Shown here in pieces: positions 13,916 through 64,000 of a DNA stretch of 64,000 nt. Positions within the stretch are counted from its first letter, which is position 1; each line of letters begins with the position of its first letter. A program made the translations under genes and the position numbers. This DNA is from Flammulina velutipes (lineage: Eukaryota; Basidiomycota; Agaricomycetes; Agaricales; Physalacriaceae): positions 1,612,001 to 1,676,000 of the forward strand of contig CM022373.1 in the NCBI GenBank assembly GCA_011800155.1. The letters run 5' to 3'. The notes beneath the pieces were generated by a model. It was not told the DNA's origin. It ran no database searches and worked only from the letters and a program-made list of their open reading frames with translations.

Positions 13916-13950
13916 TGATGGGACTTCTGCAAGAAGCCCCGAAGGGCGTA

Positions 13951-33609: not shown

Positions 33610-35348
33610 TGATGTGCAGTGTAGAAGAACACCACAAAAACACACACAAAACACACACTAACAAGTCAATGGTGCGATGCGGGAAAGTCCGATGTTTATA
33701 GCGGGATTTCACGTTATGGTAGCAATCGTTCGTTTTGTAATAGGTGGTATGGGACGGGTTCTTGTTCTTTGTATCTTTGTTTTTATGGGACTGTTTCTCT
33801 CTATCTTCTGCTCAAAATGCTTATACTAGTTCGACGGGGTAACAGGGATCTGATCTTAAACTGAGTTCTAGTTTGCCACTAAGTCACAGGCCGATTGGGA
33901 TGTGTGTAAAGAGACCTAATGAGGCTCTTCCCAGGCCAACAACCTTCAACCACACTAGGGAGCGGGAGCTCTGGTATCTATCTGTATAATCAGGACTCTC
34001 CAACAACTAGTCGGGGCCTGAATAGATAGCCTAGCACAGTCTGAACCACACTTGTATGGGACTTGGGACTCCAACCAGAGTTGGTAGGTTCTTTAGATGG
34101 AATTTCCCGCGGAAACTCGGATCGTTGGAATCGCAAAGGACTTGGCTTCAACTTCTTTAATATGGGAAGTAGCTCCAATGAGTTCTTAGATCTTTGGTTC
34201 TGTTTCTTATTTCCACCTATCTAACAGTGGTTCTTTTTCTAACTAAATCTTAGAGTCTATTCCTCCAGTATATACGGCTTGTGGGCTGCAGATACGGGGG
34301 GTGTAAGCTACTGTAAATAGTACAAACGAGCTAGCTTTATAGTGTTTTCTATATACGTCTGAATAAAGATATAACACCGAGTCCGCTGGTTCGGGGGAAT
34401 ATTCCGATAGGATGTACGGAATATCCCTCTAATGGTGCCCTTGGCATTGCTGCCTATTCGTTCTGGCTTCTATTTGCTTTGAATCCAACCAATGGTGGCG
34501 CCGTAACTGAGTTTGCAGTGGCGCCAGGTTGTTCCTTGTGCTTGGAAGCTCCACTATTTCATCGTTTCCACTATTATTAGCGGCCGAGTTCTGTCTAGCA
34601 GGAACTCTTAGCCTTTGTTCGTATTCTTATTTCATACTACGAGTCCAAGTAGTACCGACTAGGTTTGGTATACTGGACGCGCAAGTATGTTCTTAGTATC
34701 GTGTTCGGACTTTTCCGGTAGTACTCCGGAAAAGCTATCGTTGTATCTTTACGAGTTGTCAATAGTACTCGTATTGTAGGTCCTTGTAACGATTTACTTG
34801 TGGATCCCGAGAATCGATCAGGAACAGTCCACCGGAGTAAGTCGATTGGTGATCGAGCAGTATCTTTTGAAAGCCTAAAAGGTTACCCTGACTCCTGAGT
34901 CTCCTATGTAATATCCCGACGTCTGAGTAGTATGAACATTTGGCTTGCTAGTCCAGCCAGCGTTTAACTGCTTGCTGGCGTTGCGTCTCTTTATGTAGAG
35001 TTTCCTTGTGTAAGGGTAACTCGCCAAATTCTGTTAAGTATTTCAGAGTTTCGCGCGTTCAAGTGTATTTGATCACGATGTCTCCATCGGGGTACTTTTG
35101 ATGATGATATTCAAGATCGTCATGTGTGGTTTGGCTATACCTACACGCCCTTCAGCGTGTGGCGCTTTTCCGACGAATCTTAGGAGTTTTCCGGTCGTAC
35201 CACGGAAACTCCTTACACTGTATCGTATACGCGTTTCGGTCTGTAACTAGAGGTTCTTGTACTCATAGGTTCGTTCTATCACTAAGAATGCTTCTTAGAA
35301 TCGCAAATTTTGGGGTCTTTCGTACTTGCATTAATACAATGCGCATCA
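33610..35348 (-). repeat. 3' LTR of X1 (1739 bp)
   Basis: Bounded by TGATG and CATCA. The element-sense start (complement of 35348 downwards) aligns with the X2 LTR start: both have AAAGACCCCA followed by TTTGCGATT at the same distance. The other end aligns with the X2 LTR end (CACTGCTCATCA versus CACTGCACATCA). It carries four CCG-N9/10-CGG palindromes (33689, 34404, 34714 and 35191). The purine tract GTCTATGGGAGA (complement of 35349-35360) directly precedes it in element sense. Confidence 0.88.
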
Positions 35349-35573
35349 TCTCCCATAGACTTATTTGATGGTGTCCGCACCATCCTGGTTCCCCTATCGT
35401 TGGATCCCTCAATATTCTTCCTGGACTCGGCTCTTGGAAAGGCCAATAGATAGGAGGACAATTCCGCTTATTTCAACGGAATTCTCCCGGCTTTGCACGT
35501 TCCATTGCCAATATTTCTTCACTATAAAAGCAGGCTGAAAACTATGGCACTCTCCGTTTTATCCTTCGTTACT
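35349..35573. promoter_or_regulatory. Polypurine tract, palindromic module and gene A promoter of X1
   Basis: 35349-35360 is the complement of a purine-rich tract next to the 3' LTR. 35367-35384 is the palindrome GATGGTGTCCGCACCATC. A TTCCG-N10-CGGAA site lies at 35464, and CTATAAAAG at about 35522 is a good TATA box for antisense gene A. Confidence 0.65.
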
Positions 35574-37204
35574 ATGCCTCCCAAGATCCCTCAATGGCAC
35601 TCCATTGGTTCTTCAATCTCTGCGGAAGCCCCCATTGCTACGCTGGAGCTCGTCCAGTATCGCCTTGCTACTGCCCCGTTGATCAACGACTTCTTGGTTA
35701 ATTACTCGCTCCCGGATTCGACCAACTCCCTTATTGTCGACGCCATCGAACAGCTCACTGCCCCAGTGATGGCCTTGTTGCGTACGGTGTCTGCCAATCC
35801 GACGCCACGGGATATTCCGATTGTCGTTGTGGACAAGTTCTTTAGCAAGTTGCTGGTATGTCTTTCCGCTTTCTTTCTATGTCTCATGCTAAGATCTTTA
35901 TTTATCTTCTAGCTCATCAATCAATCTCTGAAGGGAACCACCGCCGTGGAGGCTTCCTTCGAGATTTTCTCCTTCTTCTGGAATCTGCGCAACGTCCTTG
36001 GGGTCTATCTTTTGGAGTTAGGCGTTAGCCCAACTCATCACCGTATCAACCTTGCGGATATGTTCACTCCAGTTCTTAATACTGTGGGTCGAGGCAAGGC
36101 TTATATCGCACCGCCTTATCCCGAGAGCCACCCCCTTCATGCTGCTTCGCGTGTAGTTCCTAAGGTCAAGGCGCCAGCCCCAGCTCCTGAGCCTACACCT
36201 GCACCCAAGCTTACTGCTAAAGCCATGCGGGCTGCCGCGAAAAAGGTATGGACTTTTCCGCTTATTCTTCGGTCTTTCTAACTTGTATCACTTTCTTAGG
36301 CTGGTAAGACTGTTAAGTCTGCCGCCATTATCGATGATGCCCTCGAGGCCGTTGGAGATACTACCAACGCCACTCTTACTGAGGATATCGGTATGTTCTT
36401 TTGGTGACCGGCATTTTCCGCTTTACTAAACAGACTGTCTGGTTTCTTCAGAAATGGACGATGGTGGGTCTGAATCTGATCTTTCTGACGATGAAGATGT
36501 GAGCTTAGTTGCTTACTTCTAGGCGTCTCAAGATTGACTCAACCCCTGCAGGACTTGACCATTATTGATGGAGATGGAGTGCGCCGCAAGGACTTCCCCC
36601 CTTCTCCGGTTCGTACTTGTCTTTTTATTCTAAGGCTTGAACTAAAGGCATTTCTCCTTTATTCATAGCCTGCTGAAGTCGAAGGCCCCCGTGTGGTAAC
36701 TTATCTTCCCTACTCGATGATCCCAGGTATGCTGATCACTTCTCGCGCATACCAGAAGGCCATGGAGGTTATAGGAAGTACGGTCACTTTCGTGGAACCT
36801 GCTCCTTTGCTCACTAAACGCAAAGCTACGGAAGATGGATCTCCTCGTCCTCTTAAGAGCCTTAAGGTTGACTCCGTTCGTATTGACAACACCTTTGTCG
36901 AACAATTCATTGGAGGTGCGTTTAGTTCTTCTTATCTTAATCTTGTACTTATCGCATTTTTCCGTGTTTCTTAGCGGGCGCTACCGCTCAGAGTTACGGA
37001 AGCTCTGTTGCTCGAGTTATCAAACAAGTCAACCGACTCCTCGCCGCCGACGAGTTGACTGAACTCGGACCTGGTCTGGTTTCGACTGAGGTGGCGCATC
37101 GCAATGAGTTGATTAGACTCTTGAATCGTATTCACGGCGACGTCCAGACGTTCAACCGTACCAAGGACTTGTATATCGCTACTGTCAAGTCTATGCTCGA
37201 ATAG
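35574..37204 (+). CDS. X1 accessory gene A (428 aa, unknown function)
   Basis: Antisense to X1 gag-pol. Seven exons join in frame: 35574-35855, 35913-36245, 36300-36390, 36452-36498, 36552-36608, 36669-36915, 36975-37204. The X2 homologue has the same seven exons, with lengths 282/285, 333/336, 91/88, 47/44, 57/57, 247/247 and 230/233, so it is a real spliced gene under constraint. Parts: N-terminal helical domain (DAIEQLTAPVMALL), conserved YLLELGV block, Pro/Ala/Lys-rich hinge, an acidic stretch, a Lys/Arg-rich likely nuclear signal (TKRKATEDGS), then a helical C-terminus with NRTKDLYIATVKSML. No recognisable enzyme motif. An in-frame ATG at 35544 is possible; MPPK is preferred because X2 starts there too. 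Function unknown. Confidence 0.85.
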
Positions 37205-37636
37205 ATATTTCCCTGTTACAACTAGGTAGTTACCCATCCCTTCTTTCCGGGTGATACTACTGTTTACCTATTGTGTTTCCGGGGCTCTTTATCTTTATCT
37301 TTATCTTTCTGATACTGTAGCCATTGCTTATTGACTCCAAATATAACTGTCCCCTAAACTTCGTGTGATTTGAACTTCAAGCTAGACCCCGAAGACACTT
37401 GTGCGCCACTTCCGTGATTCCTAGCGGGATTTCGCATGAAGTCTTCGCCGGTCTCCTTTCTTGTTCTTAGGGGTTTACAATTTTCGTTTTCCGTATCTAT
37501 AGCCTATACGTTCATTATTTTCTTTGCCTTGACGAATACCTGACCCATTAGCCAGTCGATCATACACCTCCTATTAGATTTGTACATCGTTTATAAGACT
37601 GAACTTCTGTAATGTCTCGGTCTTCGTCTGCCTCAG
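37205..37636. other. Spacer between genes A and B of X1
   Basis: 432 bp holding the A 3' end and B promoter. It contains a CCG-N10-CGG palindrome at 37412. No other gene. Confidence 0.5.
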
Positions 37637-38803
37637 ATGCCTTCTCCTATCGCTTTGATTCCTCTATGGGCCAACTTTAAAATCGCTATGATTCCGGGTT
37701 TGGACAAGCGATTTTCCGAGGAGGCCTTGGACTTTTTGCAGGCTGAGACTGGTCTCGCCGTTGCTATATCGTTATATCGCACTGCTCAAGGCTTTCCTAT
37801 CGTGGCCACGCCACTCAATAGCTTGGATCTTACCGCACGGTATACCGATGCGGCTGCGGACTTGCACTTAGGTCCTGCTCGTCAGATAGACGCTCCTACA
37901 TTGAGGTTCACCCTAGGCGTAATGGTACGTCTCGGATTTTTCCTTACATTTCGCGGGTCTAACGGTCTTGATAGCAACACGCTTCTAGTTTGTGGCATTG
38001 CGAACATCCCGACTTTCGTACAGGGCAAGCTTACAACTTAGCTTCGTTGTATATCGTCTGTCTTCGATTGGTGTCCAACTTCTTTCATGGACACACGGGA
38101 AACTGTACCCTCGATGGTCTTTCCTTCGAAGGATGGCTTTCCAAAGTATATCGCCAACCCCATATGCACTTTACGGAGTTGTACTTGGATGCTAGCGCTG
38201 ATTTCATCGTGAGTTCTTTAACCTATACACCTTTTCCGTACTAAATCTCGGGATTTTCCATAGACCAGCGTAATGTTGGGCTATCATAGGGGAGCGCCTG
38301 ACTCTTTGGGTGGGATTTTTGCCCATCCTGAGGTCTTGGACGCTATCCCTGTCCCTCTATCTCGTATGGATGCCAGCGACGTTCAATTAGTCGCTTGGTG
38401 GCCTCGTTATCTTTCCGCTAACAACATTCAGCCCGAGTTTGATACTCGTCCTATCATGTATGAACGGGTCATTACCAACGGTTATTCGCCTTTACACGAT
38501 TTTCCGGCTGGGTTGGTTGACGCTAGTGACCTCAGACTTGGTCCCCACGCTGAACGCTTCACTGAGTTCGTACCAGAGCCCCATTGTGTTGCTCAACGGC
38601 GATCTAGCTCAACGCCTGAACTTGTTCCAATCAGTTCTCCAGTACCAGTGGTCAGATCTTTCGTAAGTCTTCTGTTCGACGTCTAGTGTATTATTCTAAC
38701 ACCTTTCTTCTGATAGACCCACTTCAATACGCTAGGACAGACTATGTGTACCCACTGTCCCACTAGTCATCCTGCCGTCGAATGTACTCCTCCGACCCAG
38801 TAG
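37637..38803 (+). CDS. X1 accessory gene B (335 aa, unknown function)
   Basis: Downstream of A in the same antisense direction. Four exons (37637-37924, 37975-38208, 38264-38662, 38717-38803), all phase 0. Exons 1 and 2 have exactly the same lengths (288 and 234 bp) as in X2, and the short last exon keeps the pattern HFN..G..MC.C. Conserved blocks: IPLWANFKIA, DFLQAETGLAVAISLYR, FPIVATP, DAPTLRF, TGQAYN, CLRLVSN, DSLGGI, WWPR, DTRPIMYERVIT. It is predicted globular and mainly helical, with no signal peptide or known catalytic motif. It ends 766 bp from the convergent gene C. Function unknown; confidence concerns its being a gene. Confidence 0.83.
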
Positions 38804-39569
38804 TCGGATTTTCCGTTAAAAGTCTATCATCTTGGTGTTAGACACTTAGTCTATATCGTTTGTCGGTTGTCCTATGTCGTAGCGCTATACCTTCAATTTA
38901 GACCCTTTCCTTGTTACCAAGTTCGTTCTGTGGTTCAAATTGATGGTGGCGCGGAAATTCCCGTATCTTCATCGGAGTTGAGTATTCTTCATGCTATTGC
39001 ATTCGTACTCGTAGCCTCAGGTATATATGGCTTAAGACCTTCGTTGGCTTGTTCTTCTATGTAACTTGAGACGTACTAGCCTTAGCGTAGTCTCTAGCTA
39101 TAACCAATGTTCGCGCTCCTGATAAGTCCGGAGATCGTCATGATTTATGGCGTCTCCCATTGACTTATTAGATGCTATCATACTGGTATCTTTGTTAGTC
39201 TACTAAGCTTTCATCCTAGAAGAGTCTGTTTTTCCACTTGAAAACCCGGAGAATCCCTTGTCTCAATGACTTGGTATCTCTTGTTGGTTTTCAAGTTTTT
39301 CTTGGTCTTAGTTCACCCCATTTTGTAACCAAAGCAGCGTGCTCGCTATTTTTCATGGTATCGTAAATCGTATGTATTTATATATGGTTGGCACTGTGGC
39401 CGCTAAGTCCCATGTTCAAATATATGTACAGGTCCAATGAAGAGAGGCTCGACGAAGAGGAAGTCCGACTAAAAAACCCGGAAAAGAACCAATGACTTTA
39501 GACAAGAAAACCCACTCTTAAGTATTCAAGGGAGCTAGGCTTCGACCTTGTTTACTTAAGAACCCTTTT
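38804..39569. other. Spacer between convergent genes B and C of X1, with a polypurine-like module
   Basis: 766 bp. 39151-39190, read on the minus strand, is a degenerate palindrome (GATACCAGTATGATAGCATC) followed by TAATAAGTCAATGGGAGACG. It matches the module next to the 3' LTR (AAATAAGTCTATGGGAGATG). No gene seen. Confidence 0.55.
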
Positions 39570-41683
39570 TCAACGACGACGACTGGGTCCTACCACGGAA
39601 TTTCCCGACGCCAACCCATAGTACTTTAGGACATTGGGATCTCCCCAATGTCTAAGTAGATCGTTCACGGCGTCCGTGAGTCTGCCGTTTTGTTCGACCA
39701 GCTGGTCGACGTCGTTTCGCAGGTCTTGGATCGTTTCCAGCAATGCTTGAGGTCGACGTTTGACTACGTCAGACTCCGGGTCCAACTTCTCGCATTTCAG
39801 CTTCATCACTTGGCACCGTATGCAAGACTTGGTCGTAGGCGTCGCGTACTTGCATTCCTTGTTTTTCTTGAGACAGTCCTTGCAAAGTACTTGAGAGTAC
39901 TTCCAAAGCTTGTCTGCTGGAATTGGCTCCTTTGCCTTGCGCTTGCCTTTGCTCTTGGCTGATGGTACAGCGCCCTTAGCCGTTTTTCTCTTCCTTCTCG
40001 CAGGCCCTTCACTTTCCGACCCTTCCTCGGAATCGTCCGTTGGTTCGTCGGAGGGCTCGAAGTCCTCATCGTTCGGCGCGAAGTCTTCGTCGTGCTGCTC
40101 ATCTTCATCGTTGCCTTGGTCGTCTCCACTGCTACCATCTGCATCGCCATCTTCGATCTCACGAGTCCTCTTCGTTCCTTTTGCTTTCGCGGGCGAGTCC
40201 GGTTTTGACATCGGAGTCGACTTGACGCTAGGTTTGGGTTTGGCTGCTGGAGCCACCTTCTTACCCACTGCTTTCGTCGTCGTCTTCTTCGTCGTCTTGG
40301 CCTTCTTCTTGGGAGAAGGTGCTTCCTCATCCACGACCTCCTGTCCGGAGTCATCTTCCATTCTCGCTTGCTTTGCGCGAAAGCTCACCGCTCGTATGAA
40401 CGCCACCTCCGGGTCCTCTATCGGAGTCGCCGCAGGAGCTGCCATTGTCGATAGCCTCGACAACTTTCGGTTTCCCAAGCCCTTGATTTCTTCTTGCGAA
40501 GGCATCGCAATGGGTGGAAGGGGCATCTCCTGGGAACCTTGGGCCGGCTTAGCCATCGGAGCCCTAGCAGGCTTCACCATTGCCATGGGAGGCATCTGCA
40601 TAGGTGCTCGAACTGGTCGAGGTGCCACTACCCTGGGACTTGGAGCCTTTGGCACGGTTTTCATCTTTCGGGGAGGGGGACGCGGAATCTCTGAACTTGG
40701 AGACCTTTCCGGGGTTGGCGCGGACTTTTCCTTGCGCTTCCCGGAATCCTCTTCCTCGCTCTGTCATAGATCGTATTAGCTGTAATATAGCTTTCACCCC
40801 TTTTTGAAGCTACTTACATCTTGCTCTTTGGAGAGCGCTTCCTCTCCTTCTTGATCTTCCTGATCCTAACAAATTCCGTTAACTTTAGCGGAATTTACTA
40901 TAATCTGGTATCGTACCTTGTCGACTCGCTTGTCTTCTTCAGGACCCTCGGATCCTGAGTCCTCTTCAGCTTCGCTGGTCCTTGCTACGGCCATAGCCTT
41001 GACGGCCTCTTCGTCGTCCGAGCTCTCGCCGCTTGACGAGTCCTATAACAAGTCCGTTGAATATATCGGAATCTGGATCTTAGCAGTTCTTACCTTGACG
41101 TTGCCTTTGGACTTTGCTCCCTGGGCTTTGTCTTGGTCTTGACCGACATCTTCATCGTCGGTCTTGTCGTTTTCTTCGCCAACCTCTTCGTCGTTGGCAT
41201 CTTCACCTTTACCTTCAGGCGTCTAAGGTTTTTCCATTGAGTTTCCCGGAATTTACCCGTTTGACTCAAGGAAACTTACCTTGACGGTCTTTTCTTTTAC
41301 TACTGCCTTCTTCTCTACCTTCCCTTCATCTTCACTTTCGTCTTCGCTTGTCTAATTTTATTCCGTTAAATTCTCGGACTCCGCCGACGTGATCTTTATC
41401 TTACCGTTACATCTGGCAATTCCTCGTATAGTTGCCAAGCCCTTGTAAGGACTTGCTCCAACCAGACGTTGTTGTTAACAGCCGAATGTTTGAATTCATC
41501 GGCGGCCTTCTCGAACTGTCTCCAGAAGACCTGGTAGTCTTCCGGAACGTGGCAGACCGGCAGAGTCCGCCAATTGCCGGGAATGAAACGAAGTCGTCGG
41601 ATCGCGTTTTTAGAAAAGTGGCGGCGCTCGTATGCAAGCGCCTTGGGTCGGGAATCCAATTCAAGGAAGTTTACTGTCGACAT
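39570..41683 (-). CDS. X1 accessory gene C: Zn(II)2Cys6 cluster protein (614 aa)
   Basis: In the same sense as X1 gag-pol. Six exons (41683-41405, 41351-41280, 41222-41094, 41042-40917, 40865-40818, 40760-39570), all junctions phase 0. The first 93 residues form a conserved-looking domain (RRLRFIPGNWRTLPVCHVPEDYQVFWRQFEKAADEF region). Exons 2-5 encode short Glu/Asp/Ser-rich stretches. Then come a Pro/Met/Ala-rich part, acidic and Lys-rich tracts, and near residues 509-540 a fungal binuclear zinc cluster with spacing CX2CX6CX9CX2CX6C. A predicted coiled coil follows (IQDLRNDVDQLVEQNGRL). Such clusters bind CGG triplets as dimers. Unusually the cluster is C-terminal, not N-terminal as in Gal4. 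Nuclear, DNA-binding role inferred. Confidence 0.88.
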
Positions 41684-42157
41684 TGTGTACAAAAGAGTAG
41701 TTATCGTGTAGATCTAGGTCGCATTTTGGCTATGTCGCGTCGCTGCGATGGTGGTTGAAGTATGAGGTCGTTTTTCTCAAATTTTCTCTTTTAAGTTCAC
41801 CATCACGGAACCGGTCCGATGATCCTCGATCAACTCCGGAAATGGAAAGGGCCATTCCGCTTCTGATGGGCCTAGCTCTTCGGGATCTTATCTTAGATTG
41901 TGGGGAATTTCCCCAACCCCGCATCGGAAATGGTACCTTTTACTTAAAGAAAAGATATTCATCATTTGTACGGTTTGTATGCAGTATATCTTTAACGTTA
42001 CTGCAATACTATCTTTGCTCTCAATGATAATACATCTTGAACGTATCGTTGGTATGTACCAAGTAAAAATCAAAAATTCCTGGTAAATTCCGTTCGTTAT
42101 TCGGGAATGCCTCTATATCCCCCACAAGCTTTATATGATGGTATCCCTACCATCAGC
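41684..42157. promoter_or_regulatory. Promoter region of gene C in X1, with post-pol palindromic module
   Basis: 474 bp between the pol stop and the gene C ATG. 42137-42154 is the palindrome GATGGTATCCCTACCATC. In element sense it is followed by a G-rich tract (TTGTGGGGGATATAGAGG) resembling the polypurine tract. A TTCCG-N9-CGG site is at 42090. Confidence 0.55.
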
Positions 42158-47304: not shown

Positions 47305-48016
47305 CTAATCGAAATCCTCCCTTGAATACGCGGGATCGACCATCGACTGCTGTTGGTATATGGATGTGTCAATCGTTCCAGATGGAGCAAAGAAGTCCTC
47401 CTGTTGGATTCCTTCATATGCTTGCACCTGTGGCGTTTCTGGTAGAGTAGATCCTGATTCCCTCTGGAACTTTGCCACTTGCTCGAGCGGATTAGGTCCA
47501 TTCTTGTTTCGTGTAAGAGAAATTCCATTGCGCAGGAAATACCAGTTCGAGTTAGCTGGTTTGTAAATCCAGCCTTCCTTCTCTAGTTTGTTCTTTTCCG
47601 GGCATTCCATAAGGAAATGTCCGGGTTCGTCACAGAAGAAGCACTTCCCGTTCACAGCAGCTGGTCTGCGTTGGGGCAAGAAGTTCGCAGGCATAGGGAC
47701 TAAGCCTTTGGGTGCGGAGGATCCCGAGTTTTGCACGGGATAGGGCGCTTGTTGACTTTGTTGTATGTACTGTGGGTATCCCATTTGTTGGGCAGGATAC
47801 TGCTGTACTTGAACTTGTCTGGCCATTGACATCCGTTCCATGAGGTTCATCATCCTCCGAGTATCTTCTTGTCTGGCTTTCTCCATTTCTTTCATTTCAT
47901 CCTGTCGTGCTTTTTCCAAAGCCTTCAAGGTATCCGTGAGTGAGTTGATACTGGCCACTTGATCGTGCATATCTTCAATTTTTACTCGAGCAGTGGAGGG
48001 TGTGACTAACTCGCGT
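47305..48016 (-). pseudogene. X1 gag, C-terminal part, cut by X2
   Basis: The Gag coding is colinear with the X2 Gag from its ERELISPSTTRVK segment onward, including a charged coiled-coil stretch and a CX2CX4HX4C knuckle (CFFCDEPGHFLMEC). It ends at the first base of the X2 LTR; the N-terminal part should lie beyond X2. At its 3' end GGATTTC precedes the TAG, where X2 has GGGTTTC, a possible -1 slippery site. Confidence 0.88.
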
Positions 48017-49711: not shown

Positions 49712-49716
49712 TATTT

Positions 49717-49733
49717 TGGAGCCCACCGCGAGG
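49717..49733 (+). other. Candidate primer-binding site of X2
   Basis: TGGAGCCCACCGCGAGG, five bases after the LTR end. It begins TGG, complementary to the CCA end of a tRNA. The matching tRNA was not identified by reading. Confidence 0.6.
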
Positions 49734-49804
49734 GGTGATAAATTTGACTTAGTCGATTCTTCGTAAAACAAGAGTTAACAAGTTATTTCTACACCCAATC
49801 CAAA

Positions 49805-52938: not shown

Positions 52939-55900
52939 TCGACGATCAAGGAGAGGTGGCTCTAGTAGTTGGACAAGCAGAGAATGGTGAAATACAGATC
53001 GAGCGCACCTTTGTGCCAGAAAAATCCCGTCAGACGTTTGATAGTCAAGCATTAACCAGCTTGTACTTGTCACAATCCTCCGATGGTGTTAACAAGGCCG
53101 CTAAAGTATTGCGGAATGGGTTTCGTTATGGAACAGCATCGGGTATGTCCACTTCGGACCACCCGCCAGGAAGTCGGGTCTTGTTACCACAAGTCCGACT
53201 AGACTCAGATTGGACTTTAGAGGAGGTCGAACAATATCAGCCAGTAACGGTGAACTTGTTCGACTCCGTCCCTAGAGGACTTGAGAAAATACTTCAGCAC
53301 TTGACAGTTAGTATTCCACAGGAGGAACTCACTCTCTCACAGCAAGAGTATTTAGACTCGAGAAAACGGGAATCAACACCCAGACAGGTCTTAGCCACTA
53401 AGAAATACAAACCAGTCGCATTGAAAGTCAAACCTCACCTGGGAACCTTACCCGAGGAGTTCAGGATCATCCGCAATATTGTCGGGGATCCACTCGAAGG
53501 CATGTTGGAATTAAATCCCAACCCGCCAAGCTTCACTCCGACAGGAAGATACACAGAAGAACGGCGTGAACAAGTCCAGAGAGACCATGTCGGGGATTTT
53601 CTGTGGCCTCAGGAAAGGAACTTGATCGACGACTTGATGTGTAAACAGAACCAAGGCTTTGCCTGGGAAGAGACAGAGAAAGGAAGGTTTCGAGAGGACT
53701 TCTTTCCACCTGTAGATATGCCAGTAATACCACATGTACCATGGGTATTGAAGAACATTAAAATCCCGCCAGGGATTTTTAATGAAGTCTGCGCTATCAT
53801 CAAAAATAAGCTAGACTCAGGCGTATATGAGCCTTCGAACTCCTCATATCGCTCGAGATGGTTTTGCGTGGTCAAGAAGGACGGCAAGAAACTTCGACTA
53901 GTACATAGTTTGGAGCCGCTAAATGCCGTCACCATAGCGCATTCGGGTCTACCACCTGCTACCGAAGAGTTAGCGGAGGCATTCGCAGGAAGAGCCTGTG
54001 GAGGGACTTTGGACTTGTATGTAGGGTATGATGAGCGCCACTTGTCAGAAAAATCTAGAGACATGACTACCTTCTCAACACCCTATGGGGCGCTGCGATT
54101 GAAGACCTTACCCATGGGATGGACGAACTCAGTTCCAATATTCCATGAAGATGTCACGCATATTCTCAAAGATGAAATCCCGACATATACGCGGCCCTAT
54201 ATTGACGACGTTCCTGTAAGAGGACCCGCCACTAGGTATCAGGACAAGGAAGGGAACTTCGAAACCATTCCAGAAAACCCAGGAATTCGCCGTTTTGTAT
54301 GGGAACACATGGTGAATATGAATAGAATCATACAAAGAATGAAATACTCGGGTGGAACTTTCTCAGGACACAAGGCAATAATCTGTGCCAATGAAACAGT
54401 AGTAGTCGGACACACTTGTTGTTATGAAGGACGGAAACCAGCTGAAGATAGAGTAAAAGTTATCTCAGACTGGTTGCCGTGTGAATGTCTTAGAGATGTC
54501 CGCTCATTTCTCGGGACAGCGGGAGTATTTCGAACTTTTGTCAAGGATTATTCATAGGGTTTAAAAGTTAGGTCGGGTCGGGTTATAGACCCACTTTTCA
54601 CTCTAACCTAACCTTAACTAGTTAGTTGAAAGTCCAGATTTGCTCTAACCTCTAACCTTAACTAGTCGTAAATTCTAACCAGTTACTGAGAGGGCAGTTA
54701 TAACCAGTCATGACCAGTTATAACTTTTTTAGGTTATAACTAGTTAGTGACTAGCTATAACTAGTTATTTTAGTCGAATATGAAGCAAAGTAAGTGTAAT
54801 GTATAAGATTAGTTGATAGAAGTAAAGTATCAGTTAGTTATTGTCTTGTGTATGATCATATATTAATGTTAATAGCTGAAAATATTTTGTAACTACTTGA
54901 TCTTAACTAAATCAGATGGAAAATTATGATTTATAACTTATTTAACTAGTTTAAACTCAGTTATAGTCAGTCATAACCCCAAAAGGTTATAACCAGTTAT
55001 AACCAGTCATTTGCCAGTTAGTCACTTTTCAGGAAAAGGTCTAACTGCTAACCTTAACTGGTTACAATTTCTAACCAGTTAAAATTCTGAACAGTTAGAT
55101 AGCAGTTAAGTTAGGTCGAGTTACAGATTTTAACCAGTTGGACTAACCTAACTTTTAAACCCTAATTATTCAAAGAAAGCGTTGGCTATGACTAGGCTCA
55201 CCAGGGATGGAGTACCATTCGTCTGGGGAGAAGAAGAACAAGCGTCAATGGATGCACTCAAAAGAGCGTTGGAAACAAGCCCCATGTTGAAACCACTGAA
55301 TTATGATTGGCCAACACCCGTTATCTTGTCGGTCGATACCTCTTACATGGCGGTTGGGTTTTATCTGTCCCAAGAGGATCCAGAAGACCCTAAGAAACGC
55401 TATTTTGCTAAGTTCTTATCTATAACCTTGGACGAGCGGGAAGCCAGGTACTCGCAATCAAAGCGGGAGTTATTTGGTCTGCACCGTGCGTTAATGGCTT
55501 GCAAGTATTATTTACTTGGATGTAGGAAATTGAAGATTGAAGTCGATGCGAAGTACATCAAAGGAATGTTGTCCAACATAGACTCTCTAACCAATGGGAA
55601 TCTACAACGCTGGGCAGAAGAAATCTTGATGTTCCACTTCACCCTAGTACACGTACCTGGGAAAGTACATGGCCCAGATGGACTCAGTAGAAGGGTAGCA
55701 TCGCCAAACGATGTGATCATTCCAAGTCCACCAGGGGACGAGTACGAAGAAGAGCTATCGACCTTCGAATATGAGGAACCCGCTAACTTAGCGGAGGAAG
55801 ACAAACCTCTACCCTTCGAAGACTTCAAAGACAATATAGACACTAGGACTGGATATCTCTTCGAAGTTAGCAAATCAGATGAGAACCAGGAGAACTTAGT

Positions 55901-57413
55901 AGAAGAAACCTCGACAGAAGTCGAGGAAGAGTACAGAGTCACTCAACTAGCCGCTATGGCAGTGGAGGACTTAGAGAAATGGGTAGCTATCGACGAGTTC
56001 CCTGAACTAGAACGATCAGCTAGGGAACAGTTATGGGAAACCTTACTACCACACGTAGAACCCTACTTGAAGGATGAGAATTATACACCCGCTATCTTAG
56101 CGGATCGACAACTTCAAACCCTTAGGGACTTCAGTGACAAGGAATTCTTCATAGCTGGTGACAAGTTATACAAAAAGAATGCAGAAGGAAAACACCGGAG
56201 AGTCCTCCTACTAGGCAAAAGACTGCCAGTGGTACAAGTCATACACGACAAGCATGGGCACAAAGGTCAATTTTCCGTCCGCAAACTTGTCGGGAAAAGA
56301 TTCTGGTGGCCAGGAATGGATACAGACATCAATTGGTTCGTAAAAACGTGTGTACTCTGTCAGAAGAGACAGAAGATGAAAATACACAAAGAACCAACTA
56401 TAACTCCAACACCAGGGATCTATGAAACGGCTTTTGTAGACACTTTCAGAATGCCGACTTCTGGCGGCACTGGAGCTCGAAAGAAGTACTCAGGATATAA
56501 TGCAGTCACAGTAGCACGATGTGGATTGACTGGATGGCCAGAGGCCAGAGCGTTAATCAATGAGAATGCCGAGACCTTAGGGGATTGGATTTTCGAAGAT
56601 ATATTGTGTAGATGGGGTTGTATAAAGCAGATAGTCACTGATAACGGACCCGCTATCAAGAAGGCAATGGTCCATATCGAGGCTAAGTATGGTGTTAAAG
56701 GGATTCTAATCACTCCCTACAACAAACAGGCCAATGGAAAAGTGGAAAGAGGGCACTGGGACATTAGACAATCATTGTTTAAAGTGTGCAAAGGCCATCC
56801 AGAGGAATGGCCCGCTTTCTTACATGAAGTACTATGGGCCGAAAGGATAACGGTTAAAAGGACTTTGGGTCATTCACCGTTTTACGCAGTAACAGGATGT
56901 GAACCAGTGTTACCACTTGATATCGAAGAAGCCACCTGGCTCGTAGATATCCCAGATACGTTGATTTCACACTCCGACTTGATAGTGTATCGAGCAACTC
57001 AGTTGATAAAGCACAAAGAAGACGTAAAGAAAATGAAACAGCGTGTAACTGAAGCCAAGAAAAGAGCGGCGGAAAGATTCATGGATGAACATAAAAATAG
57101 AATTCCAAAGTACAAGTTCAAAACAGGTGAACTCGTACTGGTGCGCAATACGCGCATTGAAGACGAATTAAATTCAAAGTTCAAAGAAAGATTCATGGGT
57201 CCATACGCTGTTATTTCTCGAACCACGGCGGGGAACTACGTACTGTGTGAATTGGATGGCTCGATATTGAAGGATAAGATAGCCCAGTTTAGAGTGATCC
57301 CTTTCTACTCAAGAAAGGACCCAAAACAACTGGGAGATGTATTTTTCAAAAGGCTACACAGGATCCGCGATAGTGTCGGGCGAGTACTCGACTTGGTAAA
57401 TAAAACTACGTAG
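52911..57413 (+). pseudogene. X2 RT-RNase H-integrase, interrupted by a MITE
   Basis: Frame open from about 52911 to 54554 and again from 55173 to TAG 57411-57413; the 610-bp MITE plus its 8-bp duplicate lies between. RT shows FCVVKKDGKKLRLVHSLEPLN and the catalytic YIDDVPVRGP; RNase H has ILSVDTSYMAVGFYLSQEDP and KVHGPDGLSRR; integrase has HDKHGHKG...CVLCQ, AFVDTFRMP, VTDNGPAI and NGKVERGHWD. Length without the MITE is normal for Ty3 Pol. No chromodomain. Apart from the MITE I see no damage, so loss of activity is recent. Confidence 0.9.
54555..55164 (-). mobile_element. MITE (TAGGGTTT family), copy b, in X2 pol
   Basis: 610 bp, inverted relative to the copy at 28338. Ends TAGGGTTTAAAAGTTAGG and its inverse; perfect 8-bp target duplication ATTATTCA (54547-54554 and 55165-55172). 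Excision of one duplicate restores VKDYSKKALAM coding. The interior is made of TAACTGGTTA-like repeats. Confidence 0.93.
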
Positions 57414-57933
57414 GGAACAGATGGTGCGGACACCATCTATTTTCCTTGGTAGGGGATATAGAGGTGTTATATAGGCCAAAATTTTAAAATTTTGTTAAGA
57501 TTCATCGTCAGCCGCCTATATAACGGGCAGTCAGAACACCCGCCAAAATAGCGGGTGGAAATCGGAAATCGGAAATCGACTCGAGTCAGGTGAGAACACG
57601 TGACGCATCACGTGACAGGACGCGTCCAAAACCAATCAAATAGAAGACTGGTTGCCAGGCATAACAGTAGTGGAAGTCAAGGATGGCAAGCTTGTGTAAG
57701 GCCAGTAAAGAGAAAGGCAGAATCAAGCTCAGGGACTCAGCGGGACCGAAACAGGCGGAAGCGAACAAGGAAAGACCAGGGCATCAATAGCAATCCAAAA
57801 AGGGAAGAAATTGACTCGCCTGGGATGTTTTGATGGGCGATCCATTAAACACCGGACCGGACCCCGGTAGTGTGAGAAAGAGGGACTTTAATGTTACCCT
57901 TTTTCTCTTCAACCACCACGACCAAAGTCGAAC
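57414..57933. promoter_or_regulatory. Post-pol palindromic module and gene C promoter of X2
   Basis: 57420-57437 is the perfect palindrome GATGGTGCGGACACCATC, followed by a G-rich tract TAGGGGATATAGAGG. Further on lie a CTATATAACG TATA-like box at about 57517, the CCG-N9-CGG palindrome at 57539, three tandem GGAAATC units (57557-57577) and two CACGTG E-boxes (57597 and 57609). These lie upstream of gene C. Confidence 0.6.
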
Positions 57934-59967
57934 ATGTCCGCGCCCGTCTCTCCCTCGCCGCTCTCGCCTGCCGCTGCCTCGTCTGCCCCCGACCTCGCCG
58001 CCGCCATACCGCCTGCACCTGAGCCTGCCGCTACCATGTCGCCCGCGCCCGAACCTACCGCTACCGTGTCGCCTGCGCCTGAGCCCGTCTCCACCGTCTC
58101 GCCTGTGACCATGTCCCCCCGTGCAGAACCAACCGCGGTGTCCGACTCGACAACGCCGTTGTTTCTCCCGGCCCCTTCAGAAGGAAGCTCGCCGTTGCCC
58201 GAAGAAAAAGAGTCAACCCCGCCTCCTAGGTCGCCAACCCCTGCGAGCCCGGAAGCGACACCACCACCTTCGAGCGTACTGGGAACGACGGAGTCAGGCA
58301 TGACCTCGTCGGTTGACGCGTCGGCGACGTGTCAACCAAGCCCAGTACGCGTCGAAACGTGGCCAAGTTTCGAGGAAGGCGGAAAGACGACCCTAGGCCT
58401 GGACTATGCGTCCACGGAGGGGGAAGAAGACGAAGACGAGGAGGTGGACGAGCTTATGAGCACGTCCTCTCCAGAACCCACGGAAAGGGAGGCGAAGGGA
58501 TCTACGGGAGGTGAACCTCCTGCAGATCCGGATCGCGACGACGGTCTCACCGCCGTCGAGATCGACTTCGCAAGGGCAATGCCCCCTCCTGTCCCGCAGT
58601 CACCACCAAGACTGCCTCTTCGTCTGGATTCTCCGCCCCCGATGACGGAATCGCTGTTTGGACCTACGTGGTTCCCAGCACCAATCCCGCCACCATCACC
58701 GCAGGCCTGGTTACAACCGACGCCGCCAACGACGACTCCGCCTCCAGCATCCCCGCCTGTTGCTGGAACTCCTCCAGCAGCAACGGAGATACCGCTGGCG
58801 GGACCGCCACTGATGCTACCTCCCTCCTTCTGGTCGCCGCCAACTGTGATGTCGCCTCGAATCTGGTCGCCCCCAACGGGTACGCCGCCCAGGAAGGCGA
58901 CACCTCCGGAAGCGGCACCGACTCCACCACCCCCGACAACCGCAACGGCTCCAAGGCCAGTTTCAAGGAAGCGAAAACTGGAAAGGCCTGTCCAGGGGGA
59001 CTCGCCAAAGAAAAGGACATGGGGACCGGCGATCCTCAAAACGCCTGCCTGGGTCCCGGTATCAAAGAAGAGGAAGGAGATGGAAGTCGAGGAAGAGGAC
59101 GACTCTGAGGAGTCGAAACAGCCAAATCCGCCGAAAAAGCGGATGAGGCTCATGAAGAAGGCGCCAGAAACGGCAAAGGCAAAGGTTAGCTCATTTCACC
59201 TGGTTTTAAACCAAGTGGAGGAAACTAACTGAGAAATTCGAAAGAAACAGCCAACTGCCGAGGAGAAGGCACTAGCAGAACAGCGAGCCGCCCGGGCAGC
59301 GGCTCGTGAAGCCAGAAAGAACCAGCCCGCCGCCTCAACGTCGGCCCCGCCTGCAAGTCGGGCTCGGGAAGCCAAACCCGCCTCACAGCCGGAGGCGTCG
59401 TCCTCAAAAAGGAAACTGGATGACGGCAATGCAGAGCCGCCAAAGAAGAAGCGAAAACCGAGGACGGTCGCCGTCAACCCTACCGGGCGTAAGCCCATGC
59501 TCCCCACGCGCGACAAAAACGACCCTTTTCACAGCCAGCAGATCCTGTGCAGGAGATGCTTCAAGAAAGGCATACACTGCAAGTTCGAAGGCTCGAACAA
59601 ATCTTGCGTGGAATGCACATATGTGAAGAAGGGTTGCTTGAAGCTGGATCCCGAGGATCACAAGGACGAGGCCCAACTTCGCGTCGACGAGCTCGAGAAG
59701 GAGTTGGCAGCGGTAACGGCCAGACTGACGACACTTGAAGAAACCGTCAGGCTGTCGGAGGCGGTTATCCCCAACCTCGAGGCAGCCCTCTCCATCATCT
59801 TGACTGGAGGAGACACGTCAGAGATCCTGCGAAAGCTGGAGAGGGGGAACTACGACTACGAGGACAGCGACGATGACGATGACGAGGAGATGGAGGACCC
59901 GAAAGGGAAAGGAAAGGCAAAGGCCCCCGCTGAGAAGAAGGGGAAGGGCAAAGGCAAAGAGAAGTAG
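57934..59967 (+). CDS. X2 accessory gene C: Zn(II)2Cys6 cluster protein (655 aa)
   Basis: Two exons (57934-59184 and 59251-59967) around a 66-bp phase-0 intron. The N-terminal 400 residues are Pro/Ser/Thr/Ala-rich and low-complexity; then come basic nuclear-type signals (PPKKKRKPRT), and at about residues 516-545 a fungal zinc cluster with spacing CX2CX6CX8CX2CX6C. A clear heptad region follows (RVDELEKELAAVTARLTTLEETV), then an acidic run and a Lys-rich end. It corresponds to X1 gene C in position, strand and C-terminal architecture, but the N-terminus is unrelated and the five X1 introns are absent. DNA binding by a dimer is expected from the family; target and role are inferred. GC content is much higher than in the neighbouring pol. 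Confidence 0.87.
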
Positions 59968-59991
59968 GAACTTGGGCAGGCCCAAGTTCCT
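59966..59991. terminator. Perfect 12-bp inverted repeat overlapping the gene C stop codon
   Basis: Arms of 12 bp with a 2-base loop (AGGAACTTGGGC and its complement). It begins within the TAG stop of gene C. It could form an RNA hairpin at the 3' end of the transcript; function is not proven. Confidence 0.5.
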
Positions 59992-60542
59992 TTGGACTCT
60001 ATACAAACGAACTAGACGTTTTACTTACAAATGGGACTTAGTACGGCAGAATACGGACTGCATACGTACTGTATTTTCTTCGGGCGCTGGAGTCGTCGTC
60101 TTTTCCTTGGGCCTCCGGGCAAAAGTGCTATATATATAGAGCTCCATATATATAAATAAATGGCTTGTGTAAAATCTTGGATATAAACGAGACTGAGAGG
60201 GCGAATCGCCGCTAAGTCGTCGGGCATCTAAGAAAGCATGAGAAAGACAAGAAAATAGGCTGCGCCACACAAGGAATTAGGCATCCGACCCGATAGCGGG
60301 TCGGGTCTTCGGACTCTAAGTGGTTCATTCAACAAATGTATTGAGTGAACTAAGCAAACTACAAGAGATAAGCGGGACGTCAAACCAAATAAGTCAAGGG
60401 GAGACGCCCGCAAGTGAAGAAGAAAAAAGGATCTAAGTGGAAAATCGGACTTAGAGAAACATAGAAGGACAAAGGTAGCTATTCAAAAGCGCCGCTATGA
60501 CTAGGGCATTAGAAATAAGAAACAAACAAGTCACGAAAGAAG
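59992..60542. other. Spacer between convergent genes C and B of X2
   Basis: Contains an AT-rich run with TATATATAGAGCTC...TATATATA at about 60128-60155 and a CCCGATAGCGGGTCGGG motif near 60289. No gene seen. The polypurine-like module found here in X1 is not evident. Confidence 0.45.
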
Positions 60543-61792
60543 TTAGAGAAAATCGGGAACACCCCAGTACTCGACACAGGACTCATCAGGATACTCGAGG
60601 GGAGCGCAAAAGCACATACGCTCGCCGCACTTGTTAAAATGTTTCTGCAATCAATACCAAGTCGTCAGCAAACAAAGGATGGCTCGAGAAAAAGCTAAAG
60701 GCACCAACAAAGACCATAGAAGGTGGAGCTTGACTCTCCGCTTCGATAGCGGGTCCCGAAACGGGAGCGGCCGCTACCATAGCGGGTTCAGTCAAGACAG
60801 ACTGGGCCACCTCCACAGCGACTGGACTACCCATCCAAGCGACGGTGTGAGGAGGTGGAACAGAAGCCGAAGGAGCAATGGGATTGGTAGTTTCGTCGAA
60901 GTCACGATCCGAGGCTAACACGGGAGCGAAGTCCAAGTGAGCAGCGAGACCCGTTGTGATAACGCGCTCGTACATGATGGGACGAGTGTCGCAGAAACGA
61001 GGGAATCGATTAACCGCTAAGAAGCGGGGCCACCAAAGGACAAGCGCCTGGTCGACGGGGGACAATTGACCCAAGGGAAGGGGCAAGTTGTTCACTACAT
61101 CGTAGTTGGCAACGATCCCTCCCAAAGAGTCCTCAGCCCCAAGGTGAAAACCAAGGAGAACGGACGTCTGACAAGGATACATTAGACCTCCGACTGGAAA
61201 GCGGGTGAACCAAACGTACGGCAAAGTCACCCAATGCCTCTTCCATCATCTTAGCAAAATACCGCTCGGGATGACGGAAGCGGGCGGGGATGAGGTCTTC
61301 AAAGTGAAGACCATCGAGTACCACGGAACCCCGCCGCATCCCAAACCAGTTAGAAACAAGACGAAGGCAGCAGACATACAACAAAGCAATGTTGTAGGCC
61401 TGACCCGTCTTAAGGTCGGGATCCTCGATCTCCCAGATAGCCATCGAGCGAATCTATATCTAAGTCAGAACCAGGAAAACAGAGGACAGAATGACGAAAC
61501 TCACCAAACATTGAATCATGAAGCGCAAAGTGGGTGCGTCGAGCATTTCGCTCACACCCAAGGACAAGTCCTCAGTCGGGGAAGTATGAAAGGAAGAAAG
61601 ATCCAAGACGTTGAAAGGCGTGGCTACGATAGGAAAGCTAAACGTAGCACGGTACATCGACAAGGCCACAGCCAGACCCGCTTCAGCTTCTAAGAAACCG
61701 ACGGCTTGACGGGAAAAGCGGTCAGAAAGGCCTGGGAGAAAAGCAAGCTTGAAGTTGGTCCAGGGAGGGATTAACGCAAGATTCTGCTCCAT
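60543..61792 (-). CDS. X2 accessory gene B (358 aa, unknown function)
   Basis: Four exons (61792-61505, 61453-61220, 61167-60715, 60644-60543), all phase 0. The first two match the X1 gene in length to the base (288 and 234 bp). Shared blocks include IPPWTNFKLAFLPGL, FLEAEAGLAVALSMYR, FPIVATPFN, DAPTLRF, LKTGQAYN, CLRLVSNWF, EDSLGGI, LWWPRFL and DTRPIMYERVIT. The last exon keeps KHFNKCGERMCFC against THFNTLGQTMCTHC in X1. The donor before the last intron (GTCTTT) is non-consensus, so that boundary is the weakest. No known domain. It is transcribed towards gene C and follows A. Confidence 0.82.
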
Positions 61793-62275
61793 GTTGGATA
61801 AGGATTCGAGAGGACGCTGCGAGTTTATAAAGGTGCGCGCCCGCTATACTATCGGGCCCCGCAATAACAAACGGATCCGCAACGGCCATCGAATGCAATG
61901 AGGCAAGGCTTTACCACACGGCTACGCTGAGTAGTATTGCCAATACGACGACCTAGAGGGTGCGGATGGACACCACCAAGTGACCTTCCACCAGGATATG
62001 CGCAGGGACTTAACCACCCGCTATCAAAACGGGTCAAGGACAAAAATTAGGCCCCGCCAACATGGCGGACAGGAACTCTATCGTGTAGATTCAGTTGGTG
62101 GCACAGCGAGACATGAGGCAAAACATATTGCAAATTCAGAGTCTAGTTACGAGGCGAATGATGAACTAAAGAGGGAATACAGTAACTAGCTGCAACAGGG
62201 ACGTGCCCAACGAACTACAGATCACGAAAAGAGTATTGAGGGATCTACAGCGGAATGTCCAAATCGAAGTGGAGA
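61793..62275. other. Spacer between genes A and B of X2
   Basis: 483 bp with two palindromes (61839 and 62017) in what should be the B promoter. No further gene. Confidence 0.5.
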
Positions 62276-63898
62276 CTAGTCTAGCAAGGACTTCACGGTG
62301 CCTACATACAGATCCTTGGTACGATTAAAAGCCTGGATCTCACCGTGGACATGGTTCAAGATCCGAACCAAGTCCAAGCGGTAGGACTGCTCCGTCGACA
62401 AAAGTGAAGCGCTAGCCTCACGAGGGAACTCGTCGAGCTCGGCAAGGCGATTAACCTGCTTGAGCACGCGAACAACCGACGAGGCGTAGCTCTGAATAAT
62501 AGGACCCGCTAACAAAGCGGACCCGCCAAGTTAGCGGGTGTACATCGAAACTAAGACAACAGGCTTACCTCCAGCAAGCTGGTCCAGGAAAGCCTGGTCG
62601 ATATGGAAAGACGAAGGCTTAGGACTCTTTCGGGGACGACTAGAGTTCTCGGCAGTAGCCTTGCGCTTATGAGCAGCGGGAGCAGGTTCGACGAAGTTCA
62701 CGGAAGAACCCAGAATGTCTAAGGCCTTCTGGTATTCCCGGGAAGAAGTCAGCATACCTGGGACGAACGCGTAGGGAAGGTAAAATACCGTGCGCTTCGA
62801 GTCCGAGGGAGGCGACTATGAACAAGTCAGCACCCAAAGTAGAAAATCAGCCCGAGTCGAAGACATTACCTCGAGAGGAACCAAGTCGGTACCAGTAACA
62901 CCGTTGCCGTCGATAATGGACAAATCCTGCAAGGGGACTGTCAACGAGTCCAAGTCTAGAAAAATCGTGAAATAAGCTCACGTCGTCCGAAGCAAGATCG
63001 GATTCAGACAGACCGTCATCCATATCTTAGCGAAAGAGAAGGTGTCGGGGTTAAAACACAGATTATGAAAGTTGGAGGAGGGGAACTTACCACAGTCCTC
63101 AGGAGGAGGCATAGCCGCTTCCCCAACGGCCTCCAACTTCTCATCGATCACCGCTGGCGACTTAACCGTCTTTCCACCCTGGGAAAACGACTTAGAAACC
63201 AGAAGCACAGTAAGGAAACAATAGCGTACCTTCTTAGCAGCAGGCTTGCTCTTGGGAGGATCCTTGGGGGTGTCGACTTTTGGAGCCGCCTCCTTAGCGG
63301 GTCCTTTTCCTTTCGAGTTAAAGGACCGCTGGTTGAAGTGCAAAGGGTGAAAGTCGGGCAACTTAGGCGCTATGAAGTCGGTGTGTCGACTAGTGACAGC
63401 CGTAAGAGGCGTAAACACGCCAGCAAGATTAATCCGCGGGAGTTGAGGATTAACCCCCAACTCCAGCAGGTAGCAAGCTAGCCAGTTGCGAACGTTATGA
63501 AAGAATGAATGGATTTCAGCCGTCGCGGTAGCGGTCGTGCGATTAGCCAAAGATAAGTTAACAACCTAACTTGGGTTAGACACGCACGAACATGGAAGAA
63601 TAAAGGCACTCACCAATAACTTGGGAAAGAAGCGATCGAGAGAGTCCACGCGGGCTTCCAGAGCGATACCCGGCGTGTTAGACGAACGAACGAGGGCCAT
63701 AATCGGTCCAGAAAGTTGTTCGATCGCGTCCTTGATGACACCCTCGACATGAGTGGGGACCGCGTAGTTCATGATGAACTCAGAGATAGCGGGTCCCAGC
63801 TCCGCACGAAACTGCGTAACCTCAGGCGCAACGGTCACTGGATCGACTGCCAGCAGTGGGCGAATAGTAGTCCAGTGCGGGGTTTTAGGAGGAGCCAT
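62276..63898 (-). CDS. X2 accessory gene A (429 aa, unknown function)
   Basis: Seven exons (63898-63614, 63565-63230, 63178-63091, 63025-62982, 62926-62870, 62815-62569, 62508-62276) with the same phases as X1. Conserved blocks: DAIEQLSGPIMALVR, RNWLACYLLELGVNP, RINLAGVFTPL, GGKTVKSPAVIDEKLEAVG, DLSIIDGNGV, PGMLTSSREYQKALDILGSSVNFVEPAP, KRKATAENSSRP, QSYASSVVRVLKQVNRL and NRTKDLYVGTVKSLLD. The best-conserved 39-residue block is about 60% identical to X1; elsewhere it is lower, against about 93% in RT. A palindrome overlaps the last 3' splice site (62505-62520). No domain recognised. The basic KRKAT segment suggests a nuclear protein; this is inference. Confidence 0.85.
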
Positions 63899-64000
63899 TA
63901 TGCAGAAAAGACAGAAGTTGGATAAGAGTTGTAGTGGACGCGCCAACGAAGCGGCGCGCCTACAACAGCTTTTAAGCCAGGACTTAGAATAACCAGATCG
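63899..64000. promoter_or_regulatory. Upstream region of X2 gene A, to the window end
   Basis: 102 bp with the palindromic GGACGCGCC...GGCGCGCC near 63938 and a CTTTTAAG at 63970 in place of a TATA box. By comparison with X1 the polypurine tract and 3' LTR should start about 120 bp beyond the window. Confidence 0.45.

Follow-up and report, generated by a model that had tools for sequence, protein, structure and literature searches.

In a 64,000-nucleotide (nt) stretch of the Flammulina velutipes genome (contig CM022373.1), which is the whole DNA analysed here and is called the window below, we found two mobile elements that appear to carry their own recognition system. The elements, X1 and X2, are each about 18 kb long and are assigned by their sequence to the Ty3/Gypsy long terminal repeat (LTR) retroelements. 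Both are densely populated by everted sites of the form CCG-N9/10-CGG, and both contain a gene, here called C, that encodes a predicted zinc-cluster protein. The sites are specific to the family, not to the copy, and are maintained by selection despite the fast-mutating CpG in each triplet, and gene C is a nucleotide-hypervariable cassette in both families, in elements that are otherwise about 98% identical. The fixed spacing, the family-specific flanks, the zinc cluster with heptad repeats and the element-wide distribution of sites point to a C protein that would bind its own family as a dimer, and a positive role, in activation or anti-silencing, fits best. We consider it moderately probable that dimers of own-family C bind the element-wide sites and activate or de-silence the element, and that escape from silencing drives the nucleotide turnover of C.

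The first-pass annotation of this DNA had proposed that such palindromes saturate both elements, and counts compared with 60 dinucleotide shuffles were far above the shuffled expectation. X2 contains 62 CCG-N9-CGG sites where the shuffles gave 4.0 (z 29), with CCG-N10-CGG near chance (7 versus 4.0), and X1 contains 24 CCG-N9-CGG (2.5 in shuffles) and 20 CCG-N10-CGG (2.7), with densities of about one site per 290 bases in X2 and one per 410 bases in X1. The remaining everted spacings between 0 and 20 were near chance in both elements (largest z 1.9). In the 33.6 kb of the window outside X1 and X2, CCG/CGG pairs were not in excess at any of the spacings 0–20. When flanks were included, exact TTCCG-N9/10-CGGAA occurred nine times in the window (shuffle mean 0.19), eight times in X1 and once outside it, at 26660, and CCCGCT-N5-AGCGGG with at most two mismatches occurred 23 times (shuffle mean 1.86), 22 of them in X2; the single match outside X2, at 33450, is in a dead X2-type LTR fragment. 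The 18 X1 and 17 X2 sites counted earlier hold as degenerate sites, but not as exact ones, which number 8 in X1 for the TTCCG form and 3 for the CCCGCT form. Other arrangements of the triplets were also raised: in X1, CGG-N6-CCG (24 versus 2.7) as well as directly repeated triplets spaced by N8 (18 versus 4.8) and N18 (20 versus 5.1), and in X2, CGG-N2-CCG (11 versus 3.2) as well as direct repeats at N12 (21 versus 6.7). Several of these are what half-sites lying outside or next to the main sites would give; many X1 sites carry an outer GG at positions -8 and -7, with which the CGG-N6-CCG excess in X1 is in keeping.

Ten further X1-like copies contained 17–31 N9 and 16–22 N10 sites each, versus 1–7 each for N7, N8, N11 and N12, in counts where some stretches include part of a neighbouring copy and some copies are partly covered. 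A non-X1 stretch beside copy C9 held nine N9 sites and overlaps places with X2 gag-pol matches. Across the genome (38.1 Mb in 23 contigs), TTCCG-N9/10-CGGAA occurred 348 times versus 85 for the reversed pattern, and the N7/8 spacing control gave 51 versus 69 reversed, which shows that the X1 pattern is spacing-specific. The X2 patterns CCCGCT-N5-AGCGGG and CCGCY-N5-RGCGG occurred 96 and 681 times, versus 1 and 149 for their reversed controls.

As had been described, the sites occur in LTRs and spacers as well as in introns and coding exons. In X1, LTR sites are found at 34404–34419 (N10) and starting at 33689, 34715 and 35191, and a coding site is located near the end of the integrase at 42257–42271 (N9). 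By eye, several introns of genes D and E, described below, also contain sites or half-sites. We shuffled synonymous codons 300 times for each set of open reading frames (ORFs), with X1 gag left out. The four X1 ORFs contain 13 N9 sites where 1.5 were expected and the five X2 ORFs contain 27 where 2.8 were expected, and no shuffle out of 300 reached either number; the four N10 sites in the X1 ORFs (0.9 expected) were matched by one shuffle. The ORF of an adjacent gypsy element (4667–13912) has no N9 site, versus 2.0 under codon shuffling. The coding-site excess thus goes beyond synonymous-codon shuffles, and protein sequence is no explanation for it. Chance and base composition are ruled out by the dinucleotide shuffles, the reversed patterns, the X1 spacing control and the synonymous-codon shuffles. 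N9 dominates the four X1 ORFs (13 versus 4 N10), and the rest of X1 has, by difference, more N10 (16 versus 11 N9); the length of an N9 site equals exactly five codons.

The spread of sites over the whole element also bears on the idea that C works on complementary DNA (cDNA) or integration, by coating element DNA for nuclear entry or by steering insertions to existing copies. The nesting of X2 in X1 would agree with such steering, as would the fact that the listed copies of both families are, by eye, often near one another, but targeting presents no obvious need for sites across coding exons and introns, and we regard this explanation as improbable.

The two families share the CCG-N9-CGG skeleton and differ in its flanks, as the first-pass annotation had stated. 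Among the window sites, a T precedes CCG in 49 of 70 X1 half-sites versus 23 of 110 in X2, and a C follows CCG in 12 of 70 versus 66 of 110 (Fisher 6e-11 and 8e-9). The X1 flanks carry information as far out as -8, reaching about 0.5 bit per position, and in X2 no position between -10 and -3, nor either of the two in the centre of the spacer, exceeds 0.11 bit. X1 and X2 can be aligned over 5742 columns, mostly in gag-pol; 10 X1 and 14 X2 sites fall in them and two coincide, so the families placed their sites largely independently. The earlier description of the sites as copy-specific has to be replaced by family-specific, with 29 of the 35 X1 sites in the window intact in every covering copy among 10 others. 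Fungi possess many zinc-cluster factors, and this favours the alternative that a host factor of this kind binds the sites and that gene C is unrelated to them, as does the fact that binding by C is predicted from sequence only. A host factor is nevertheless an improbable explanation, as the rest of the window has no excess of sites, and each family combines flanks of its own with a C of its own, the two C proteins being about 30% identical.

Two further alternatives raised earlier, mobile hairpin clusters and structural RNA elements, are disfavoured. The sites have no common sequence beyond their half-site preferences, which argues against mobile hairpin clusters. If the palindromes formed hairpins that work at the RNA level, in splicing or packaging for instance, the CCG..CGG pairs found in four of the five introns of X1 gene C would be accounted for, together with the pairing excess at X1 outer position -3 (22 of 35 versus 12.4 expected) and a weak one at X2 inner position 2 (28 of 55 versus 21.9, P 0.044). 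The spacing is restricted to 9 or to 9/10, however, 12 of the 14 flank and inner positions showed no significant pairing beyond composition, and the sites occur in genes of both strands, which makes hairpins a very improbable explanation.

The candidate binding protein is of the zinc-cluster type, as the first-pass annotation had claimed, with a full six-cysteine motif followed by heptad repeats in both families. X1 gene C (39570–41683, minus strand) has five short introns, recognised from GT..AG ends and open frames, and its cluster at 39792–39884 reads C-X2-C-X6-C-X9-C-X2-C-X6-C. X2 gene C (57934–59967, plus strand), as read from the sequence, consists of exon 1 (57934–59184), an intron (59185–59250) and exon 2 (59251–59967), and its cluster at 59548–59637 reads C-X2-C-X6-C-X8-C-X2-C-X6-C. 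The Gal4-type pattern C-X2-C-X6-C-X5-12-C-X2-C-X6-8-C fits both window proteins and all six other X2 loci; the six cysteines are present in 9 of 9 aligned X1 C sequences (copies C8b and C4 being outside the alignment) and are invariant in an alignment of C with four database relatives. By eye, the heptad positions read I-L-V-L-N-L-V-L in X1 and V-L-L-V-L-L-V in X2, and acidic low-complexity stretches and basic patches are visible in C. The best PDB matches of the X1 domain were two PUT3 chains (E 0.12 and 0.16), in alignments that span cluster and coil. Eleven related proteins were found elsewhere, none of them named, four in a first search and these four plus seven more in a second, which scored 7999 candidates; relatives P0009–P0011 scored 12.5–14.6 bits with the Pfam profile Zn_clus, under the cut-off of 21. 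No relative was confirmed in viral contigs, and a search of the genome for a third gene C family listed, beyond the X1- and X2-type matches, two weak ones (E 0.014 and 0.056).

To assess the upkeep of sites, we compared broken triplets in sites with those in other CCG/CGG triplets, using 20,000 permutations and nine X1 copies or up to six X2 copies; the copy C4 was excluded from the X1 set because its gene C agrees with that of C8b to two decimal places. Site triplets in the X1 C block were broken in 11 of 162 cells versus 160 of 522 in the control (29 of 20,000 permutations as low), and outside the block in 3 of 452 versus 81 of 1771 (84 of 20,000). In the X2 C block, 20 of 102 versus 293 of 606 were broken, and in X2 D/E 1 of 154 versus 27 of 300; for X2 gag-pol, the other copies provided end pieces and part of the gag of one copy. 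Losses in X1 were confined to five sites gone in one copy each and the site at 40544, gone in 8 of 10. Three of the intron pairs in X1 gene C are intact in every copy checked: the sites in intron 1 (41363–41377, CCG-N9-CGG), intron 3 (41054–41069, CCG-N10-CGG) and intron 4 (40876–40891, CCG-N10-CGG) have intact triplets in 10 of 10 other copies. For X2, the triplets of two sites located between pol and C (57512–57554) are intact in 6 of 6 other copies. Every site triplet contains a CpG, and among X1 copies the frequency of CpG transitions was 3–4 times that of other C/G transitions outside the C block and 2.3 times that within the block. A dead X2 LTR fragment (32658–33535) has lost 11 of 38 CpGs and two of three sites.

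The hypervariable cassette, which was missing from the first-pass annotation, bears most directly on function. Compared with the window copy, X1 copies show identities per 300 nt of 0.78–0.99, mostly 0.80–0.94, in a block from 39310 to about 41850 (minus strand), and mostly 0.97–1.00 in the LTRs, gag-pol, D and E (minimum 0.93, at 36310); the block has a sharp edge at 39300 and a more gradual one at 41700–42100. The X2 block, from 57900 to 60400 (plus strand), shows 0.66–0.95 per 300 nt and is flanked by a mixed stretch (57450–57900) and by D/E at 0.96–1.00 from 60600, and X2 gag-pol matches are mostly 96–99% identical. Synonymous divergence (dS) in the long X1 C exon was 0.42 and nonsynonymous divergence (dN) 0.049, with dN/dS 0.12 (36 pairs from 9 sequences, C8b and C4 left out), versus dS 0.036–0.059 and dN/dS 0.08–0.15 in the X1 gag-pol ORFs, and X2 C exon 2 gave dS 0.67, dN 0.080 and dN/dS 0.12 (21 pairs from 7 sequences). 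The dN/dS of 0.12 in both families rules out diversifying selection on the C protein. Two X1 copies on different contigs, C8:2638874 and C4:666179, agree to two decimals over the C block; either the event behind this is very recent or the assembly contains a duplicate.

The origin of this variation can be narrowed down further. The same pair of X1 copies may be 0.98–0.99 identical in one stretch and about 0.8 in the next; the transition/transversion ratio is 1.6 in the X1 block versus 3.2–3.8 outside it (2.25 in the X2 block, without an outside value); and columns with at least three bases number 135 in 2433 in the X1 block, versus 9 in 5688 and 3 in 6113 outside. The mosaic blocks, low ratio and multi-base columns lead us to read the cassette as old haplotypes that recombination has probably shuffled and in which the protein and most of the sites have stayed constant. 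A locally raised mutation rate would account for the block lying at the same gene in both families, but it is a distinctly unlikely source, given that the X1 mosaic blocks are common to copies, with a lower transition/transversion ratio and many columns of three or more bases. Directional editing was also rejected as the origin, with every substitution type present and the X1 ratio below that outside.

We infer that C binds the sites and does so as a dimer, that its effect is positive, that transposons are methylated in this genome and that escape from silencing drives the hypervariability. The Gal4-type C of each family would form a coiled-coil dimer that recognises everted CGG half-sites, with a spacing of 9 in X2 and of 9 or 10 in X1, and binding along the whole element, coding exons included, would mark the element as self. 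Bound C would then act as a self-specific transcriptional activator or as an anti-silencer, working against the transposon methylation that CpG decay in the genome suggests. The positive role is favoured because it would account for the upkeep of sites throughout the element in a CpG-eroding genome, and it would make gene C a natural target of homology-dependent silencing, favouring silent-site novelty without protein change. Because C would be the switch, its RNA or DNA would be the point at which such silencing bites, and rare nucleotide variants of C would therefore spread; synonymous, intron and untranslated-region positions would diverge while the protein and most sites stay constant. More tentatively, we propose a form of self-recognition in which C coats its own family through dozens of sites in coding sequence, introns and LTRs and a pool of recombining gene C haplotypes, divergent at silent sites, evades homology-dependent silencing.

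Several observations weigh against the activating or anti-silencing dimer. The excess of pairing at X1 position -3 is not predicted by independent half-sites. X1 C scored 16.7 bits with Zn_clus, under the cut-off of 21, and window X2 C gave no match; the PDB matches are weak, with GAL4 and PPR1 at E 1.7–9.7 among unrelated proteins. Two X1 copies, C8b and C4, which are alike, have broken C frames. As only two families exist in the genome, the co-divergence of C and its sites is based on a single comparison. Retention in the covered part of the X2 LTR, gag and pol end was not significant (1 of 66 versus 7 of 94 broken; 5866 of 20,000 permutations as low), and the 20 X2 sites of strong consensus, with 15 of 112 triplet cells broken, were retained no better than weaker sites. 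The fourth X1 intron pair is CCG..TGG in 4 of 10 aligned copies (the window copy and three others). Finally, X1 copies have probably been methylated, because outside the C block their transitions are 3–4 times commoner at CpG than at other C/G.

The first-pass annotation had compared the system with the VANDAL elements of plants. VANDALs are Mutator-like DNA transposons and their VANC is not known to be a zinc-cluster protein. According to PMC5735166 and PMC10398659, VANC of Arabidopsis VANDAL elements is an element-encoded, sequence-specific DNA-binding protein, its motifs are short and repeated in introns, intergenic and terminal regions of their own family, and related VANDAL families have different motifs, a diversification proposed as an escape from RNA-directed methylation. 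As far as these sources describe it, the motif logic is similar to that of X1 and X2, and to this extent the comparison stands. It does not extend to element type or motif arrangement, the defining features that X1 and X2 lack: these are Ty3/Gypsy LTR retroelements and not Mutator-like DNA transposons, their sites are dispersed, many of them in coding exons, whereas VANDAL motifs are in non-coding tandem repeats, and their gene C is hypervariable at silent positions. The X1/X2 system is filed, provisionally, as a variant of transposon self-recognition. Spm TnpA and MuDR MURA have sites near the transposon ends and, unlike X1 and X2, belong to DNA transposons. The two proteins, as cited in PMC10398659, are tied to methylation loss in their own families.

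Put3, Gal4 and Ppr1 resemble C in their six-cysteine spacing, in the heptad repeats after the cluster and in the CGG half-sites, which are the predicted targets of C. They differ in that C is retrotransposon-encoded and only weakly similar in sequence, and in the arrangement of sites: those of the Put3/Gal4/Ppr1 type are inverted, CGG-N6-CCG or CGG-N11-CCG, whereas those of X1 and X2 are everted. We file X1 and X2 as Ty3/Gypsy elements with a Gal4-type protein that stays under the Pfam cut-off.

A negative role for C also has a precedent. In cluster A mycobacteriophages, according to PMC6550527, an immunity repressor acts through many dispersed, mostly non-promoter stoperators with clade-specific motifs. 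As described there, the likeness to X1 and X2 lies in one encoded protein, dispersed sites and group-specific motifs, and the difference in a bacterial virus with oriented, asymmetric sites, repression and a protein specificity that itself diversifies. C could in the same way be a repressor or copy-number controller, such that resident C shuts off newcomers of the same family, and the dispersed sites, family-specific motifs and single encoded candidate binding protein would agree with this. Immunity groups should, however, diversify protein specificity and sites together, whereas divergence within a family affects silent positions, with C conserved (dN/dS 0.12) and the sites for the most part preserved; in addition, X sites are palindromic in their triplets and stoperators are mostly oriented. 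We consider a repressor unlikely.

To our knowledge, the cases in which a transposon encodes a sequence-specific anti-silencer of its own come chiefly from plant DNA transposons, and a literature search of titles and abstract beginnings, with subscription journals mostly outside it, found no retrotransposon with its own zinc-cluster protein and dispersed sites. If correct, the more tentative reading, with gene C kept as a pool of silent-site haplotypes, would represent a new class of conflict between element and host: the arms race would be fought over the switch gene's nucleotide sequence and not over its protein. A retroelement that carries transcription-factor-like sites at such a density, under measurable selection, would show that the anti-silencing strategy had an independent origin based on another protein fold. 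The hypervariable cassette lets nucleotide escape from homology-dependent silencing, as a shaper of transposon genes, be tested directly.

X1 lies on the minus strand (33610–48016) and continues past the nested X2, with a total of 18,103 nt, 3,696 of them outside the window; L005 coordinates refer to the sequence beyond the window end. Its 3' LTR (33610–35348, 1739 nt, TG..CA ends) has a 5' partner at L005 3798–5521 that is 98.0% identical, with target duplication CCGG, and its internal region (35349–48016) is split by X2 after 48016 and continues at L005 1825–3797. The gag-pol ORFs (42161–48174, minus strand) encode a zinc knuckle, protease, reverse transcriptase (RT), RNase H and an integrase H2C2 domain; the gag ORF, as listed, extends slightly into X2. 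X2 is a complete element inserted into X1, from 48017 to about 65820 (17,804 nt, 1,820 outside the window). Its 5' LTR (48017–49711, plus strand, 1695 nt, TG..CA ends) holds seven CCG-N9-CGG sites and has its partner at L005 126–1820 (99.8% identical; 4-nt target duplication GCGT). X2 gag-pol (49748–57413, plus strand) accounts for 21 CCG-N9-CGG within 49712–57420, and 19 more lie in 60001–64000.

The gag-pol domain order is that of gypsy elements, and both elements have paired TG..CA LTRs and a short target duplication. Pfam scores for RNase H and integrase H2C2 were well over the cut-off in both, zinc knuckle and RT matches were under it in both, the protease match was over it in X1 (24.9 versus 24.3) and under it in X2, and the integrase core profile (rve) had no match in either. 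Genes D and E are conserved between X1 and X2 and lie on the strand opposite to gag-pol in both: D at 35454–37201 and E at 37613–38683 in X1 (plus strand), and E at 61843–60637 and D at 64000–62279 in X2 (minus strand), all given as open-frame limits. Compared with Pfam, neither gene had a family over the cut-off, the best match of D being a phage family (E 0.035). The pol of the window X2 copy is interrupted by an insert of about 610 nt (54555–55165), because at least 15 other X2 copies lack it at the same place. A relative of this insert is present at 28336–28927, with more matches on contigs C15 and C9.

Elsewhere in the window, older relics (24455–33606) have a low CpG content (observed/expected 0.66) and include X1-type and X2-type LTR pieces. 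The separate gypsy element at 4247–14280 has identical 330-nt LTRs, one open frame of 3082 codons and no excess of sites.

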